A program made the translations under genes and the position numbers. This document shows positions 40,633 to 47,354 of a stretch of 64,000 nucleotides of DNA, in pieces; within the stretch, counting starts at the first letter, position 1, and every line of letters starts with the position of its first letter. The DNA is from Draconibacterium sediminis. Lineage in GTDB: Bacteria; Bacteroidota; Bacteroidia; Bacteroidales; Prolixibacteraceae. The stretch spans positions 1 to 64,000 of the forward strand of contig NZ_JRHC01000006.1 in assembly GCF_000949475.1 (NCBI RefSeq). Direction: 5' to 3'. The notes under the pieces are model-generated. The model had not been told where the DNA came from. It saw nothing but the letters and a program-made list of their open reading frames with translations, and made no database searches.

Positions 40633-43515
40633 ATGAAGAAACTACTTTTATTACTTCTGGTCTTGACAACTTATGTTGTTCATGCTCAGTATTTCGATAC
40701 GGGGCAAGATCCGGCGTCGTTGAAATGGCGCCAAATTAATACCACCAATTTTCAGCTGATATATCCCGATTATTATGAAGACCAGGCACAGATTCTGGCT
40801 CAAAAGCTGGAGATGGTTTACGATTTCGGAAGTTATTCGTTGAAATACAAGCCGGGAAAAATATCGGTAATTCTTCATACACAAACGGTGCAATCGAACG
40901 GTTTGGTGGCTTATGCCCCAAAACGCTCGGAGTTTTATACCACGCCGCACCAGGCCATTTATCCGCAAGATTGGTTGGAACAGCTGGCTTTGCATGAATT
41001 CCGGCACGTGGTACAGATCGATAAATTAAATGCCGAGTTACCAAAAATCATAAAAATTATATTGGGCGAGCAGGGAACGGCTTTATTGTTTGGAGCTTAT
41101 CTGCCGTGGTGGTTTATTGAAGGTGATGCAGTGGTAACAGAAACAGTATTAGGCAACTACGGGCGCGGACGTTTGCCGTCATTTTTGGTGGAACATCAGG
41201 CGCAGGTGGTCGACAACAAAATATTTTCATACGATAAAGCTTACCTCGGATCATTCAAAGATTACATTCCCAACCACTATCAGCTGGGTTATTACCTGGT
41301 GGCTGGTTCACGAGAACGATATGGAAGTGATATCTGGGAGAAGGCCATAAAAAGAGTGGGCAGAAAACCTTTTTCGATCACTCCTTTCAACAGAGCTTTA
41401 AAGCTCGAAACCGGTTTAGGAAAGGTTCGGCTTTACGAATCGATATTTGACAGCCTCGCAACCGAATGGAAAAATAATGATACAAAATTCGTAGCCGATC
41501 CATCAAATCAACTTTCGAAAGAAAATAAAAGATATACGAATTATTTGTACAAACACTGGCTTAACGATAATGAAATAATTGCCTACAAAACAGGCTTGAA
41601 TGTAGTTCCTTCATTTGTAAAGATCGATACAAAAACAAATAAAGAAAAGCGCGTAACAATTCCCGGATATATTTTTGAAGAGTCGGTAAATTTCAGAGGA
41701 GAATGGATCGTTTGGGCAGAAAAAGTACCTGATGTTCGCTGGTCGCACAGTGGACTTTCGCGAATTCGGATCTTAAATGCAGCTACAAAAAAAATGTATT
41801 CTGTTGCTCCTGAATTTAAGGCATTTGCTCCGGCACTTTCACCCGATTTAAAAGAGGTAGCAGTTGTGGAAACCGATTTTTCAAGTTCTAATTATTTAAC
41901 GGTTTATGATATCTCGAGTGGAAAAATGAAATTCCGCTTCCAGACTGACAATAACAATTATTTCTTTTCTCCGGTTTGGTTAAACCAGCACGAATTAATA
42001 TATGTGCTGCTGGATGAGAACGGAAAACATATAGCAAAAGTGAATCTGCAAAATAAGGAGCAAACTTTGCTTCCGGGAACAGCGTTGGGTGAGATTAAAC
42101 AATTACAGGTTTCAGGAAACAACTTGTATTTTATTAGCAGCTACTCAGGCAAGAATGCCCTTTATATGTACGACTTAACCAGCTCTGAAATTCAACAAGT
42201 TTACGAACCTCGTTTTGATGTTGCTTATCCGGCGATAGGCCAAAGTGGAACAATTGCACTTAGCGATTATACAGGTGATGGTTTTCGGATTATTGAATTT
42301 CAACCGAAAAATGCATTACCGTTAAACGAGATTTCATCAGGCAACTGGCCATTGGCCAATACCATGCAACAGCAAGAGCCGGGCATTGTTGACTTTTCGA
42401 GTGTTGATAGCACTAACTTGTTCGCTTCGCAGACTTATAGTAAAACAAAACATCTGTTTAATTTTCATAGTTGGGCGCCTGTTTTTGTAGATCCCGACAA
42501 CTATGAGTTTTTGCCCGGTGTTAGTCTGATGTCGCAAAATAAGTTGGGAACAGCTTTTACCACTTTGGGATATAGGTGGGACACCAGCGAAAAAACAGGA
42601 AATTTTTATGGCCGGTACACATATAAAGGCTGGTTCCCTGTTTTTGATTTTGAAGTAACTGGAGGTAAACGGGCATCGCAGTATTGGTTGATTCGGGAGT
42701 ACCAAAACCAGGAAGGACAGGTGACAAAAAGAGATACCACGCTTCAGGATTATAAATGGAATGAAACGAATTTTAGTGCCAATATGCGTATTCCGTTAAA
42801 TTTATCGAGGGGAGCATTTACGCGCTTTTTTCAACCTGAAATTGAATACCAGTTTACTCGCTACGGAAAAGAGGAGTCGACACCCGACGAGTTTAACACT
42901 GGCGATTATCAATCGCTTTCGTACCGCTTATATTATTACCAGCTTCTACGAAGAAGCCATCAGGATATTTATCCGAATTTTGGCTTTGCATTAGAAGGGA
43001 ACTTTCGCCACTCGCCATGGCAATCAACCGAAATGGGGCGTTTGACTGCCGGCGCAGCCACGATGTATCTTCCCGGCCTTTTGAAAAATCACGGCATTCG
43101 TTTGTATGGAGGATTACAAGAAAAAAGTTCCGGTAATTTCTTTGGTTTTTCTGATGCGATTCGTTTTCCCCGCGGATGGACAAAAATAGAAACCGAACAA
43201 TTACAATCCTTATCGTTAAATTATGCACTGCCCCTTAGTAATCCCGATTTAAGTATTGGCGGACTTACCTATGTGCGCAGAATAAGTGCAACGTTTTTTG
43301 CCGATTACGCTAATCTGCAAGGAAGCTACCATGGTGGAGAAACTCCAACAAAATTTAATGTAGATATTTCATCGTATGGTGTAGAGTTGTTGGGCGATGT
43401 TAATTTCCTTAGATTTTATGCTCCGGTGAAAATAGGAGTCAGAACTTCCTATCTTAAAGAACTGGAAGATTTTGGTTTCGATTTCTTGCTGTCTGTTGAT
43501 TTTAATTCGTTATAG
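40633..43515 (+). CDS. HExxH metallopeptidase-like protein with propeller and outer-membrane barrel
   Basis: 960 residues from the ATG at 40633, which begins a signal peptide (MKKLLLLLLVLTTYVVHA). The first about 290 residues resemble a gluzincin peptidase: HEFRH at 121-125 and WFIEGDA with Glu163 as the third ligand. Residues about 300-570 carry WD40/TolB-like blades (LSPDLKEVAVVETDFSS, SGTIALSDYTGDGFRI). The last about 380 residues have alternating strands and an end typical of outer-membrane beta-barrels. The combination suggests a surface or periplasmic protease attached to its own barrel. No named family was recognised. Confidence 0.72.
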   Translation: MKKLLLLLLVLTTYVVHAQYFDTGQDPASLKWRQINTTNFQLIYPDYYEDQAQILAQKLEMVYDFGSYSLKYKPGKISVILHTQTVQSNGLVAYAPKRSEFYTTPHQAIYPQDWLEQLALHEFRHVVQIDKLNAELPKIIKIILGEQGTALLFGAYLPWWFIEGDAVVTETVLGNYGRGRLPSFLVEHQAQVVDNKIFSYDKAYLGSFKDYIPNHYQLGYYLVAGSRERYGSDIWEKAIKRVGRKPFSITPFNRALKLETGLGKVRLYESIFDSLATEWKNNDTKFVADPSNQLSKENKRYTNYLYKHWLNDNEIIAYKTGLNVVPSFVKIDTKTNKEKRVTIPGYIFEESVNFRGEWIVWAEKVPDVRWSHSGLSRIRILNAATKKMYSVAPEFKAFAPALSPDLKEVAVVETDFSSSNYLTVYDISSGKMKFRFQTDNNNYFFSPVWLNQHELIYVLLDENGKHIAKVNLQNKEQTLLPGTALGEIKQLQVSGNNLYFISSYSGKNALYMYDLTSSEIQQVYEPRFDVAYPAIGQSGTIALSDYTGDGFRIIEFQPKNALPLNEISSGNWPLANTMQQQEPGIVDFSSVDSTNLFASQTYSKTKHLFNFHSWAPVFVDPDNYEFLPGVSLMSQNKLGTAFTTLGYRWDTSEKTGNFYGRYTYKGWFPVFDFEVTGGKRASQYWLIREYQNQEGQVTKRDTTLQDYKWNETNFSANMRIPLNLSRGAFTRFFQPEIEYQFTRYGKEESTPDEFNTGDYQSLSYRLYYYQLLRRSHQDIYPNFGFALEGNFRHSPWQSTEMGRLTAGAATMYLPGLLKNHGIRLYGGLQEKSSGNFFGFSDAIRFPRGWTKIETEQLQSLSLNYALPLSNPDLSIGGLTYVRRISATFFADYANLQGSYHGGETPTKFNVDISSYGVELLGDVNFLRFYAPVKIGVRTSYLKELEDFGFDFLLSVDFNSL

Positions 43516-43897
43516 CCAAATTGTAAAAAAAGTATTCTACAAAATCCTAGTTTTTTAAGTAATTGATTTGAAAAAGTAGAAATTCATCGCTATTTATTCT
43601 ATTTGCTCGTTTGTTTCATTTTCTTCTATTTTTCTCTAAGTGGTTAAATTATTGGTATTTATATCGCAAAATGGCCGTTTTAAAGCTTTTGAGAATTCGT
43701 CAGACCTTTGTTTGTGTGTAATGATGCGTAAATATTTACTGCATTTGACGCAATAGCACCAAAATGAAAAGGACAGGAGCTGTTTTAAATCGCTTAGCCG
43801 ATGAAATTGAGTTTTACTAAAGTGTTAGCGAAAATATACCTTGTCAATAAACACTACATCAAAGCGATTGGAATTGTTACTACAACTTAGTGTCCAC

Positions 43898-43912
43898 TTG
43901 TAAAATTTACAA
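43898..43912. promoter_or_regulatory. 15-bp palindrome, candidate XRE operator
   Basis: TTGTAAAATTTACAA is a perfect 7-bp-arm dyad around a central A. It has the same TTTACAA half-site as the site at 51661-51688. Confidence 0.4.
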
Positions 43913-44397
43913 ATATATCTTAAACGTAGAATAATAATGTAAAAACTATTTAATACTAAAAGTATACATATGTTTCATGTTTGATTTTTTGACACACTAC
44001 AAATGTTTTACATGTGTAAATCAAATCTCAGAATTTAGTACTTCATTTTTGAATTGAAATCAGGATGCAATTGTATATATGTAACACGAAATAGGGTAAT
44101 GTTTAAATAAATAAAGACTAAATATACAAAGTGAAAAATTGTTGTCAATATTTGCTATGTATAAATATACACAAGATGCAAATCTATTTTTAAATCTCTA
44201 TATCAATGAATTACAATAATCATATAAAGTAGTTTAGTATCAAAGTTTGACAAAATACACTATTAGTGCTTTATTGTAGCAACATCATCGTATTACATAT
44301 TGATATCCTGTTACTTATGCGGTTTATATGAATTGGTTTATCGGCTAAATTAAAGGTTTTTGCAAGTAATTTCGTATTTACATTTTATGAAAAGTAG

Positions 44398-44428
44398 TTG
44401 TTATATTCGAAAAGAATATTTACATTTG
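44398..44428 (+). promoter_or_regulatory. Distal promoter of XRE gene
   Basis: TTG at 44398-44400, 20 bp, then TACATTTG at 44421-44428 (exact TAnnTTTG). The -7 box is part of the repeated TAYATTTGT element. Confidence 0.5.
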
Positions 44429-44470
44429 TTTTTGAAGTATACACGAAGTCTGTTGGACGCATGACAAATG

Positions 44471-44478
44471 TATCTTTG
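44471..44478 (+). promoter_or_regulatory. Proximal -7 box of XRE gene
   Basis: TATCTTTG matches the consensus and lies 16 bp before the ATG, giving a very short leader. Confidence 0.5.
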
Positions 44479-44494
44479 CAACACACCTTAGAAA

Positions 44495-44911
44495 ATGAAA
44501 GACCGAATTAAAAATTTTATCGAGGTAAAAGGAATTTCAGCCGGAGAACTGGCTGCTGTTCTGGATGTGCAACGATCTAACATCTCACATATTCTTAATG
44601 GAAGAAATAAACCAGGTGCTTCATTTATTGAGAAGCTACTACTGGAGTTCCCTGATTTAAACGCTCGCTGGCTACTCACGGGTGAGGGAGATATGTTTAG
44701 TGGACAAGTAACACCGGATAACAGTCCGCAACAAAAGCTACCAATAGTTGAAGAAACTATTAGACAGCAACCTTTGGCTGAACAGCCAGTGAAGAAGAAT
44801 ATAATACCGGAGGAGAATATTGATAAGACAATCTCGGCTCTTGATAGCGAAATAGATAAAATGGTTATTATATACCGTGATGGTACATTTAATATATATA
44901 AGCAACGCTAA
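44495..44911 (+). CDS. Small XRE-family (cro/CI-type HTH) regulator
   Basis: 138 residues. HTH at about 14-45: GISAGELAAVLDVQRSNISHILNGRNKPG, followed by FIEKLLLEFPDLNARWLLTGEGDMF, a pattern widespread in Bacteroidota. A polar linker (about 75-105) leads to a short C-terminal segment DKMVIIYRDGTFNIYKQR, which may be a dimerisation or ligand element. It is isolated by 979 bp and 761 bp of non-coding DNA full of TTTGTA/TACAAA words, so autoregulation and control of the downstream short transcripts are likely. No phage genes are nearby. Confidence 0.85.
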   Translation: MKDRIKNFIEVKGISAGELAAVLDVQRSNISHILNGRNKPGASFIEKLLLEFPDLNARWLLTGEGDMFSGQVTPDNSPQQKLPIVEETIRQQPLAEQPVKKNIIPEENIDKTISALDSEIDKMVIIYRDGTFNIYKQR

Positions 44912-45130
44912 GAAATTATTGAAGAAATGTATTAAGCAAGGCTTATAAAATTATATAATGCATTTACGTGCATGAAGTATATTAAATACAGATAGTTTAA
45001 AAAAGGATTTTACCCTATAGTTTTAGTTATAATTAGAATAAAAGCACTTGAATATTATATGTTGTAGAGAATTGTAATCGTTTTTACAAAAAGGTACTTG
45101 ACCTCCAAACGGTGGTTAAACCAGAGTAAC

Positions 45131-45165
45131 AAAGAGGGCTGTAGCAATACAGTCCTCTTTTGTTT
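45131..45165 (+). terminator. Terminator with GCAA tetraloop
   Basis: A 13-bp stem (45131-45143 with 45148-45160, one G-U pair) closed by GCAA is followed by TTTTGTTTA. It ends the XRE transcript with a 220-nt 3' UTR, or a separate short RNA. Confidence 0.85.
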
Positions 45166-45174
45166 ATATGTAAA

Positions 45175-45206
45175 TTTACCAAATATATAAATATAGTTTA
45201 TATTTG
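45175..45206 (+). promoter_or_regulatory. Promoter-like unit 1
   Basis: TTTA (45175-45178), 20 bp, then TATATTTG (45199-45206, exact -7 box), continuing as TAACATGGTTAAAC. The surrounding TAGTTTATATTTGTAACA is nearly duplicated 108 bp downstream. Confidence 0.45.
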
Positions 45207-45282
45207 TAACATGGTTAAACTATTGACATTCAATTGCCGAATAAACAAAAGTAAACTTTTTACAAAAATAAAATAAAAAAGA

Positions 45283-45314
45283 TTTGCATATGTAAATTAA
45301 TAGTTTCATATTTG
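45283..45314 (+). promoter_or_regulatory. Promoter-like unit 2
   Basis: TTTG (45283-45286), 20 bp, then CATATTTG (45307-45314, one mismatch), continuing as TAACAG and AGTAAAC. It is a near-duplicate of unit 1. Confidence 0.5.
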
Positions 45315-45320
45315 TAACAG

Positions 45321-45441
45321 CAAAAGTAAACAACAATACGACAGGATGATTAAAACAATATAGATTCAATTTACAAACCCAATTTAAGTTGATAAATCCA
45401 GAAGTCGCTTGGCCACTAGAAATAGTGGCCATTTCTGGTTT
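45321..45441 (+). ncRNA. Candidate small RNA ending in a nested hairpin
   Basis: Predicted start about 7 nt after the unit-2 -7 box. The 3' part folds into an outer stem CCAGAA/TTCTGG (45398-45403 with 45433-45438) and an inner 9-bp stem TGGCCACTA/TAGTGGCCA closed by a GAAA tetraloop (45419-45422). A weak U-run follows (GGTTTAT). No ORF. Both ends are inferred. Confidence 0.4.
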
Positions 45442-45496
45442 ATAAGAGTATGTTTTTTTCAAAATGAAGTTAAATGTAAAAAAAGTAAAGTATTAT

Positions 45497-45527
45497 TTTG
45501 TAAATGTAAATTTTATTGATACATTTG
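45497..45527 (+). promoter_or_regulatory. Consensus promoter of short transcript (unit 3)
   Basis: TTTG at 45497-45500, exactly 19 bp, then TACATTTG at 45520-45527: a perfect TTTG-N19-TAnnTTTG promoter. The -7 box merges into GTATACACGTAAAC, a putative operator. Confidence 0.65.
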
Positions 45528-45533
45528 TATACA

Positions 45534-45609
45534 CGTAAACAAAGACCCTTATTTTTTACCTAATTTAAATATAACATAGAAGGCCGTTATTCAACGGTCT
45601 TTTCTTTTT
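45534..45609 (+). ncRNA. Candidate small RNA of about 75 nt
   Basis: Bounded by the perfect promoter at 45497-45527 and a terminator (9-bp stem AAGGCCGTT/AACGGTCTT at 45580-45601, tetraloop ATTC, then TTCTTTTT). It contains no start codon with an ORF of any length. The start position is inferred. Confidence 0.5.
45580..45609 (+). terminator. Terminator of candidate small RNA
   Basis: 9-bp stem with one G-U pair, 4-nt loop and a following TTCTTTTT. It stands directly upstream of the pyrK promoter, insulating it. Confidence 0.85.
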
Positions 45610-45647
45610 GTATCAATTCATGGCGCAAAATTCAACGATTATTCTAT

Positions 45648-45655
45648 TATCTTTG
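45648..45655 (+). promoter_or_regulatory. -7 box of pyrKD promoter
   Basis: TATCTTTG, exact match to TAnnTTTG, 17 bp before the pyrK ATG. Confidence 0.6.
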
Positions 45656-45672
45656 CGGCAAAATCAGAATAC

Positions 45673-46449
45673 ATGCCAAAAAAGTTTGTTAAAGAATTCA
45701 CCGTAATTGAAAATAGCGCGCTAAACGCTACAAACTTTCTTATCAAAGTACAGTCGGATACCGAACTTCCGGAGATAAAACCAGGACAATTTGTAAATAT
45801 TGAGATAAAGGAAGCGGAAGAGATCTTTCTTCGCAGGCCTTTTTCAGTGTTTGAAGTGGATTACGAAAAGAATGTAATCTCGATGATCGTTAAAATACTG
45901 GGGCGGGGATCGCGTAAACTAACAGAGATTAAAGCAGGAAGTAAACTAAGTATGGTTTATCCACTTGGAAAAACTTTTACGTATCCGTCAGCAGACGATA
46001 AAATCTTGCTGATTGGCGGTGGTAGTGGTGTTGCGCCAATGCTTTTCTTAGCCAAAGAATCGGGTTTACCGGTGGAGAATGTTGACATTTTACTGGGTGC
46101 ACGATCAAAAGAAGACCATATAAATGTAGATAGTTATAAACAGTATGCGAATTTACATTATGCATCAGAAGATGGTTCGCTTGGTGAAAAGGGATTTGTA
46201 ACACAACATTCGGTATTTACCAATAACTTAAATATATACACTAAAATATATGCCTGTGGCCCGGATGGAATGATGCGTGCCATTGCAAAAGAAGCAAAAG
46301 CGGCTGATGTATTTTGCGAAGTATCGCTCGAAAACCTTATGGCCTGCGGTTTTGGCGTGTGTTTGTGCTGTATCGAGCCAACCACGAAAGGAAACCTGTG
46401 TGTGTGTACTGAAGGTCCGGTGTTTAACATTAATGATTTGAAATGGTAG
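45673..46449 (+). CDS. pyrK: Dihydroorotate dehydrogenase B, electron-transfer subunit
   Basis: 258 residues. The FAD-binding motif [11 protein letters not shown], the NAD-binding [17 protein letters not shown] and the 2Fe-2S ligand cluster CGFGVCLCC plus a downstream Cys in GNLCVC near the C-terminus are all present. It passes electrons from dihydroorotate oxidation by PyrD to NAD+. It overlaps pyrD by 7 nt, which couples translation of the two subunits. Confidence 0.95.
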
Positions 46450-47354
46450 ATTTAAAAGTAAAATTACACGATATAGAATTTAAGAATCCGGTAACACTGG
46501 CGTCGGGTACCTGCGGATTTGCACGCGAAACAGCTGAATTCTTTGAACCAGGCTTGCTTGGAGGTTATTTTCTGAAAGGTACAACGCTTAAAAACCGCGA
46601 TGGTAATAACTACCCGCGAATGGCGGAAACACCTTCAGGTATGCTTAATGCGGTGGGTTTACAAAATAAAGGCATCGATTACTTTATTGAAAACATTTAT
46701 CCTGAGATTGTTAACTATGATACACAATTGATTATAAATGTAAACGGATCTACTGTTGAGGATTATATTGCATTAACCGAAAAAGTTAATGAACTGGATA
46801 AGATAAATGCCATTGAGTTGAACATCTCTTGCCCCAATGTTAAAGAAGGCGGAATGGCTTTTGGTGTAAGCTGTCCGGGAGCCGAAATGGTTACCCGCGA
46901 GGTTCGTAAAGTATACGACAAAACGCTTATTGTAAAATTGTCGCCAAATGTTACCGACATTTCTGAAATTGCCCGTGCTGTAGAAGGGCAGGGAGCAGAT
47001 GCTGTGTCGTTGGTAAATACCTTTTTGGGAATGGCCATCGATGCCGAAAAAAGAGAACCACTATTATCTACTATAACCGGCGGATTATCCGGTCCGGCAA
47101 TAAAACCTATTGCATTACGCATGGTGTGGCAGGTTGCCAACGCGGTTAAAATTCCCGTTGTTGGAATTGGCGGAATAATGACTGCTTCCGATGCTATTGA
47201 GTTTATGCTGGCAGGAGCTTCAGTTGTTCAGGTTGGTACAGCAATATTTAAAGATCCGATGATTCCGGTGAAGATTGTTGAAGGCATTGAAGATTACTTG
47301 AAACGCCACAATATGCAGTCGGCCAGTGAATTAATCGGTGCTTTACAAGTGTAG
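46443..47354 (+). CDS. pyrD: Dihydroorotate dehydrogenase B, catalytic subunit
   Basis: 303 residues, class 1B. FMN and substrate motifs are [17 protein letters not shown] and [11 protein letters not shown]. The catalytic loop contains [12 protein letters not shown] with the class-1 Cys base. The C-terminal phosphate-binding motif is [28 protein letters not shown]. It catalyses the fourth step of pyrimidine synthesis. Together with pyrK and the more distant pyrG it makes this stretch rich in pyrimidine genes. Confidence 0.96.

Follow-up and report, generated by a model that had tools for sequence, protein, structure and literature searches.

A putative small-RNA array between an XRE-family regulator gene and pyrKD in Draconibacterium sediminis and its relatives

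The closest described counterpart of the locus analysed here is FopS, a paralogous family of small RNAs (sRNAs) with 14 members in Bacteroides thetaiotaomicron (PMC11697453). FopS RNAs are reported to be multicopy sRNAs of Bacteroidota with a Bacteroidota-type promoter, in which a 5' stretch containing a conserved segment precedes an intrinsic terminator (PMC11697453). GibS (Rfam RF04182), likewise described from Bacteroidota, is encoded in an intergenic region and has a 5' seed that is unstructured (PMC7366714). In Listeria (LhrC) and Neisseria (NgncR_162/163), several related sRNAs are reported to occur in one genome. The Bacteroidota sRNAs in the surveyed literature stem mainly from Bacteroides.

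In Draconibacterium sediminis, the 761-bp gap (44912-45672) between the gene of an XRE-family regulator and pyrKD carries three conserved units, A, B, and C (Table 1). All coordinates refer to the window, i.e., the first 64,000 nucleotides of contig NZ_JRHC01000006.1 (assembly GCF_000949475.1). The preferred reading, held at a probability of about 0.55, is that the units are trans-acting sRNAs under the control of XRE and that C belongs to a multicopy, FopS-like family, with transcription, targets, and control all predicted from sequence. Unit C shares with the FopS RNAs the order of a 5' segment and a terminator and the type of promoter, but the sequence of the segment is unlike the 5' sequences of the Rfam models GibS and BTnc231, which were the sequences compared; the C set comprises C and three conserved loci rather than the 14 members reported for FopS (PMC11697453), and C differs from FopS in its location in the XRE-pyrK gap. 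Unlike LhrC and NgncR_162/163, which are reported to be related RNAs, A, B, and C are a mixture of different RNAs and, by eye, not copies of each other.

The locus is probably new. Literature searches on Draconibacterium small RNA and on XRE with Bacteroidetes or Bacteroides sRNA, in sources that cover few subscription journals, yielded no report of it, nor did the matches listed for Prolixibacteraceae sRNAs. Rfam found no match at gathering score in the whole window, and all matches of permissive searches covering 43500-45800 and 45000-45180 stayed under their gathering scores; a FopS model was not among them. The best permissive match was BTnc231 at 45004-45161 (E 0.0044, 23.5 bits vs 80.4), and GibS, with a stretch that starts in unconserved spacer, scored 22.8 bits (gathering score 115) and is by this criterion not a homologue. 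Both were set aside because their 5' part lies in unconserved spacer and their 3' part on the terminator of A.

Table 1. Features of the XRE-pyrKD locus (window coordinates)
Feature	Position	Strand	Remarks
Likely XRE promoter, TTG-N20-TACATTTG with TTTACATTTGT (44419-44429)	44398..44429	+	candidate XRE operator
ACAAATGTATCTTTG, reverse complement of TACATTTGT	44464..44478	+	overlaps second -7-like box
XRE-family HTH regulator, 138 aa	44495..44911	+	Pfam HTH_19, E 2.9e-7
Unit A, sRNA-like	45056..45166	+	TTGTAGAGAAT conserved from 45062; hairpin 45131-45160; 86% identity, 7 species
Promoter-like stretch of the first-pass annotation	45189..45209	+	not conserved; spacer identity 55%
B promoter, TTTGCATATGTAAA...CATATTTG	45283..45314	+	YAnnTTTG in 29/29 anchored B promoters
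Unit B, putative sRNA	45322..45442	+	5' part, then structured terminator CCAGAA...GNAA...TTCTGG
B core 1, TTTACAAACCC	45370..45380	+	invariant in the 19 sequences of alignment A3, for which it served as anchor; also in dispersed E elements
B core 2, CAGAAGTCGCTT	45399..45410	+	also in E elements
C promoter, perfect TTTG-N19-TACATTTG	45497..45527	+	1 of 2 in window
Unit C, putative sRNA of ~75 nt	45534..45609	+	5' segment, then terminator; model R2
C seed-like segment, ACCCTTATTTTTTACC	45545..45560	+	15/16 letters equal ACCCTTATTTTTTATC of three other loci, 6/6 species
C terminator hairpin	45578..45603	+	terminator scan
pyrK own -7 box, TATCTTTG	45648..45655	+	downstream of C terminator; invariant in 9 aligned species
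pyrK, dihydroorotate dehydrogenase electron-transfer subunit	45673..46449	+	Pfam DHODB_Fe-S_bind
pyrD, dihydroorotate dehydrogenase	46443..47354	+	NCBIfam PRK07259.1, 411 bits vs cut-off 269

The HTH domain of the regulator also matches phage-repressor families in PHROGs (best E 1.6e-13); a comparison with PDB gave no match, and the sole NCBIfam match, HigA, is far under its cut-off. The nearest named relatives at the locus are Draconibacterium and Maribellus, with XRE identities of up to 88%. All NCBIfam matches of pyrK remain under the curated cut-offs. The first-pass annotation had described the gap as devoid of protein genes, in agreement with the single open reading frame of at least 40 aa found there (80 aa, minus strand, 45220-45462), which runs across unit B. 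A short frame in B that begins with ATGAT varies among species in both length and sequence (by eye).

A terminator scan of 43500-45800 identified six sites, compared with 0.8 +/- 0.9 in shuffled sequences, and three of them are plus-strand hairpins in the gap (45131-45160, 45410-45431, and 45578-45603). These correspond to the three strong hairpins noticed previously, two of which indeed have GNRA loops (GCAA in A, GAAA in B), whereas the loop of C is of another kind; the GNRA loop of A is not conserved. A sigma-70 type scan, which is not built for Bacteroidota promoters, predicted 13 promoters and thus no excess over the 14.3 +/- 4.4 expected. The perfect TTTG-N19-TAnnTTTG in front of C recurs just once in the 64 kb, counting both strands. 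Near-duplicate stretches are present around 45199 and 45307, as reported, but the promoter proposed at 45199 did not hold up, since it lies in a poorly conserved spacer (45165-45270) and is followed by no unit. Among the three promoter-like units originally claimed, those of B and C are conserved, the 45199 site is not, and the start of A had been overlooked.

Conservation separates the units from the DNA between them. In alignment A1 of nine species, with identities computed as pairwise means over seven of them (L001-L007), A, B, and C reach 85.6, 93.8, and 97.4%, compared with 45.4, 55.0, 70.5, and 72.4% for the spacers; invariant positions amount to 100 of 121 in B (94% identity) and 71 of 76 in C (97%). 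The pyrK promoter is similarly conserved (97.2%). Over all nine species, B and C remain at 94.2 and 97.2%, whereas A drops to 41.1% because an insertion in L008 misaligns it and L009 is diverged. The description of 45497-45609 as a complete promoter-RNA-terminator cassette of about 75 nt is borne out at the level of sequence by unit C, which has both the promoter and the terminator hairpin.

Structural evidence is strongest for B, whose hairpin shows compensatory changes on both sides in six of nine predicted pairs (19 sequences) and retains a GNAA loop in 14 of 19 copies (by eye). The stem of C contains one pair with changes on both sides. For A, RNAalifold found no consensus stem and no pair changed on both sides; its conserved part starts near 45062. 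The -7 region of A reads ACATTTGT in eight of the nine aligned species and GCACTTGA in the window genome, so that A may be weak there. By sequence criteria, A, B, and C are stand-alone units with their own promoter and terminator, the poor -7 region of A in this genome notwithstanding. Together with changes in copy number and the existence of C-like loci elsewhere, the conservation of the units and the compensatory changes in B indicate that the sRNA array proposed in the first-pass annotation is very probably real.

The array occupies a neighbourhood that extends well beyond the genus. A DNA search found matches in 23 of 41 genomes, and XRE and pyrK are both present in 19 of the 20 loci returned. 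Judged by anchor strings, A and C occur in 14 each of these 19 loci and B in 17, two of which have it in duplicate; the gaps of L016 and L019, with 99 and 124 nt, lack all three. The downstream structural conservation that the first-pass annotation had suggested as a check is present: of the 127 family genomes, 26 from 3 of 23 genera contain matches to covariance model R1 (B), four of them in two copies, and all 30 matched places lie, by coordinates, directly downstream of an XRE orthologue. With model R2 (C), 23 genomes of the family set gave 24 matches; the 19 strong matches (E <= 7.3e-5) are all in the XRE-pyrK gap and the other five (E 0.004-0.008) elsewhere. Both searches ran with filters that lose weak matches. 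Among 294 genomes of the order, R1 matched six; three of these matches fall in XRE-pyrK loci, namely that of the window itself and two others whose contigs measure 4-5 kb. The remaining three (E 0.001-0.003) adjoin neither gene and look like terminators only.

The regulator gene itself is far more widespread. XRE protein matches are present in 110 of the 127 family genomes, most of which lack B, so XRE must have some other job. Nor is it isolated, contrary to what had been assumed: among 40 further family loci chosen in addition to the initial 20, pyrK follows on the same strand at a distance of about 25 to 1399 nt in 39, and the fortieth is cut by a contig end. The exact ACAAACCC anchor is found in only 12 of the 40. 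Across Bacteroidota, 33 of 80 named loci with XRE homologues have pyrK downstream on the same strand, including those of Dysgonomonas and Paludibacter, and the gaps are mostly short outside the sRNA clade. Only one clade has RNAs in the XRE-pyrK gap, suggesting that the arrangement is old and that the RNAs were added later. In three loci (L158, L017, and L018), the 3' UTR of XRE contains, directly after the stop codon, TGATTGATGACTTAYAAA stretches followed by a terminator-like hairpin; these stretches are similar to the first part of the cores of B and E.

A link between XRE and the array is suggested by shared promoter motifs. Upstream of XRE, a TTG-spaced TAnnTTTG starts at 44398. TTTACATTTGT at 44419 is invariant in seven aligned species, as is ACAAATGTATCTT of the 44464-44478 site, although the last bases of that site vary. 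TTTACATTTGT is thus a better candidate for the XRE promoter than the gene-proximal TATCTTTG, whose last bases differ among species. The region 44400-44490 as a whole is strongly conserved and contains TACATTTGT and ACAAATGTA in inverted orientation at a distance of about 35 bp. In the window, TACATTTGT is present at both C and XRE. Among the B promoters (29 of 30 B copies could be anchored), TACATTTGT occurs in 16, TTACATTTGT in 14, and GCATATGTRAA in 19, and 13, including that of the window, have CATATTTG or CACATTTG. TTTGCATATGTAAA was found 26 times in 33 genomes of the genus, 16 of them in the XRE-pyrK gap, three each in G008 and G020, compared with one occurrence of the reversed control.

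Of 79 loci with XRE homologues, 29 have the motif TTACATTTGTA in the 150 bp preceding the homologue, compared with only 3 of 119 control upstream regions (other open reading frames of at least 150 aa from the same loci, identified with a simple ATG caller); the loci are related by descent and not independent, so p values overstate this enrichment. With its HTH domain and the suggestive enrichment of this motif, a candidate operator, upstream of its homologues, XRE may be an autoregulated repressor. The alternative that the sRNAs act in trans while XRE is unconnected, with TACATTTG being simply a strong -7 box and the gap a tolerated site, seems unlikely. It is compatible with the 50 homologues that lack TTACATTTGTA, with the predominance of family loci that have XRE and pyrK but no RNAs, and with the fact that TACATTTG is the commonest TAnnTTTG of the window (12 of 66), so that the "operator" might amount to no more than a strong promoter box. 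It does not readily explain why TTACATTTGTA is enriched at more distant loci (L174-L229) too, where it precedes 16 of 55 homologues and none of 86 controls, why up to three TACATTTGT per 200 bp precede distant homologues, or why every B match adjoins XRE. In six chosen genomes, TTACATTTGTA occurs 51 times and the reversed control 62 times, i.e., there is no genome-wide enrichment; 10 of the 51 exact sites are located no more than 1.5 kb from XRE and share its strand, and the five exact sites of the window genome are all outside the locus. On balance, the evidence modestly favours control of the array by XRE, as first proposed, with the indirect support of synteny and of a motif common to sRNA promoters and that of the XRE gene. 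XRE may well regulate its own gene as well as the array, and repression would be the likely mode because the motif overlaps the -7 box.

Unit C appears to have relatives elsewhere in the genome. The 12-nt reverse complement of its segment was found at 57 places in six genomes of the genus, six of which are C itself. Among the other 51, 24 bear the longer ACCCTTATTTTTTAT[CT], and 19 of these 24 have a hairpin 14-23 nt behind the segment (one, L307, without a T tail); at the remaining sites, hairpins are weak and present in 3 of 27. Eighteen of the C-like sites represent three loci, each conserved in all six species while their flanks diverge. They carry ACCCTTATTTTTTATC, which differs from the segment of the window C by one base, and their own terminators (L298, L299, and L300, near base 350; G000 C1:634468, 720976, and 1102159). 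Word models of the window predict 0.007-0.018 copies of ACCCTTATTTTTTATC per genome, compared with the 3-5 observed, with 12 of the 16 letters being fixed by the selection of sites with a 12-nt pattern. The terminators of the three loci are unrelated in sequence, RNAalifold found no consensus stem, and R2 did not recover these loci. With several loci, a common 5' segment, and separate terminators, C can with good reason be regarded as a member of a multicopy sRNA family. By eye, the 45 nt upstream of the C-like loci lack TACATTTGT, so these loci would answer other signals. The view of the C segment as unpaired rests on the alignment fold, since part of it is weakly paired in the lowest-energy fold of the window C.

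Unit B is connected to a second set of sequences through its core. The combination TTACAAACCC-N(8-36)-CAGAAGTYGC occurs at two other places in the window genome; in 396 genomes of the class, among which no other member of the genus is listed, it was detected (three times) in the window genome alone. These places belong to an element of about 100 nt, E. Of 41 relatives, 23, all members of the genus, carry 1-6 copies. Eight genomes share one copy that shows 100% identity over 116 bases, and divergent copies retain the outer stem with changed bases (GGGGAAAGC/GCTTTCCCC vs GGGTAGAAC/GTTCTACCC). Copies are located at L236:3325-3440 (G000 C1:1576824-1576939) and at G000 C1:2341831, C13:15185, and C1:2217358. 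E has no match in Rfam or among plasmids and no exact 20-mer in viral contigs; a comparison with phages gave one 33-base match. A G005 stretch that also bears E contains a group II intron RNA (Rfam RF02001, RF01998; L238:1457-1745).

Antisense partners were sought for both units. Among all 51 non-C places in the six genomes, 12-mers antisense to C are mostly C-like loci and chance occurrences in coding sequence, with no convincing conserved target. One such site, AAAAATAAGGGT (L236:5111-5122), is flanked by a methyltransferase-like and an OmpA-family gene in four of the six genomes, where by a rough estimate about 0.1 such pairs are expected by chance; the methyltransferase-like gene has an E element upstream, and the site is a weak target lead. 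Exact 11-mers antisense to B occur at 92 places in eight genomes, nine of which are B itself, and the 14 examined among the remaining 83 are E elements and unrelated sites without a convincing conserved target. The lack of conserved antisense targets in these searches and the same-sense orientation of the shared motifs would suit a role of B and C as decoys that titrate a shared RNA-binding protein or sRNA, the decoy site being the E core in B and the C-like segment in C. Such a role, which is compatible with control by XRE and not exclusive of the preferred reading, is nevertheless rather improbable, because the C-like loci have the appearance of independent, terminator-bearing sRNAs and not of mRNA leaders, and the decoys would have no known binding partner.

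The position of the units between XRE and pyrK, with tandem terminators that could attenuate read-through, might also suggest cis-acting leaders or attenuators of pyrKD that are read from the XRE promoter and sense pyrimidine levels. A riboswitch or pyr attenuator is disfavoured by the conserved promoter that pyrK itself possesses behind the terminator of C, although read-through may still reach pyrK. As B and C also have conserved promoters of their own, and copies of the B core and of the C segment exist at sites remote from the locus, a leader function is very unlikely. That the units are conserved DNA elements such as operators or repeats is most improbable, since the scattered E elements with their inverted ends, and a predicted fold whose stability in one copy does not exceed that of shuffled sequences (z -0.99), would fit, but the order of promoters and terminators, the compensatory changes in the B stem, and the different terminators behind one C segment all fit RNAs.

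In the preferred reading, i.e., XRE-controlled sRNAs acting in trans, A, B, and C would be transcribed separately and end at their own terminators. Binding of the XRE protein to TTACATTTGTA-like sites, which overlap the -7 boxes of its own gene and of the sRNAs, would repress both this gene and the array until a signal releases the protein. The 5' segment of C (ACCCUUAUUUUUUAYC) may pair with A-rich translation starts of target mRNAs, and its paralogues would act together with C, their different promoters bringing in other signals. B would act via the TTTACAAACCC / CAGAAGTCG core that it has in common with E, whether through base pairing or through competition with E over a common partner. The array would have been built up inside the older XRE-pyrKD neighbourhood.

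A more far-reaching and doubtful extension is that XRE, originally located in front of pyrKD, became the switch of an array assembled from different RNA families in one clade of Prolixibacteraceae, with C belonging to a dispersed set that has a nearly fixed 16-nt segment and B carrying the E core, so that one factor would feed two genome-wide RNA networks, in part through decoys. If true, such a two-network array switched by XRE is perhaps tied to nucleotide status. The locus represents a compact combination of a regulator and an sRNA array in marine bacteria that include the named strain Draconibacterium orientale (L152), and to this it adds a multicopy set of the C type as well as E, an extremely conserved element with a link to B. 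The locus supplies testable sequences in the form of seeds, a candidate operator, and paralogues, and suggests that sRNA genes accumulate inside an old operon neighbourhood.
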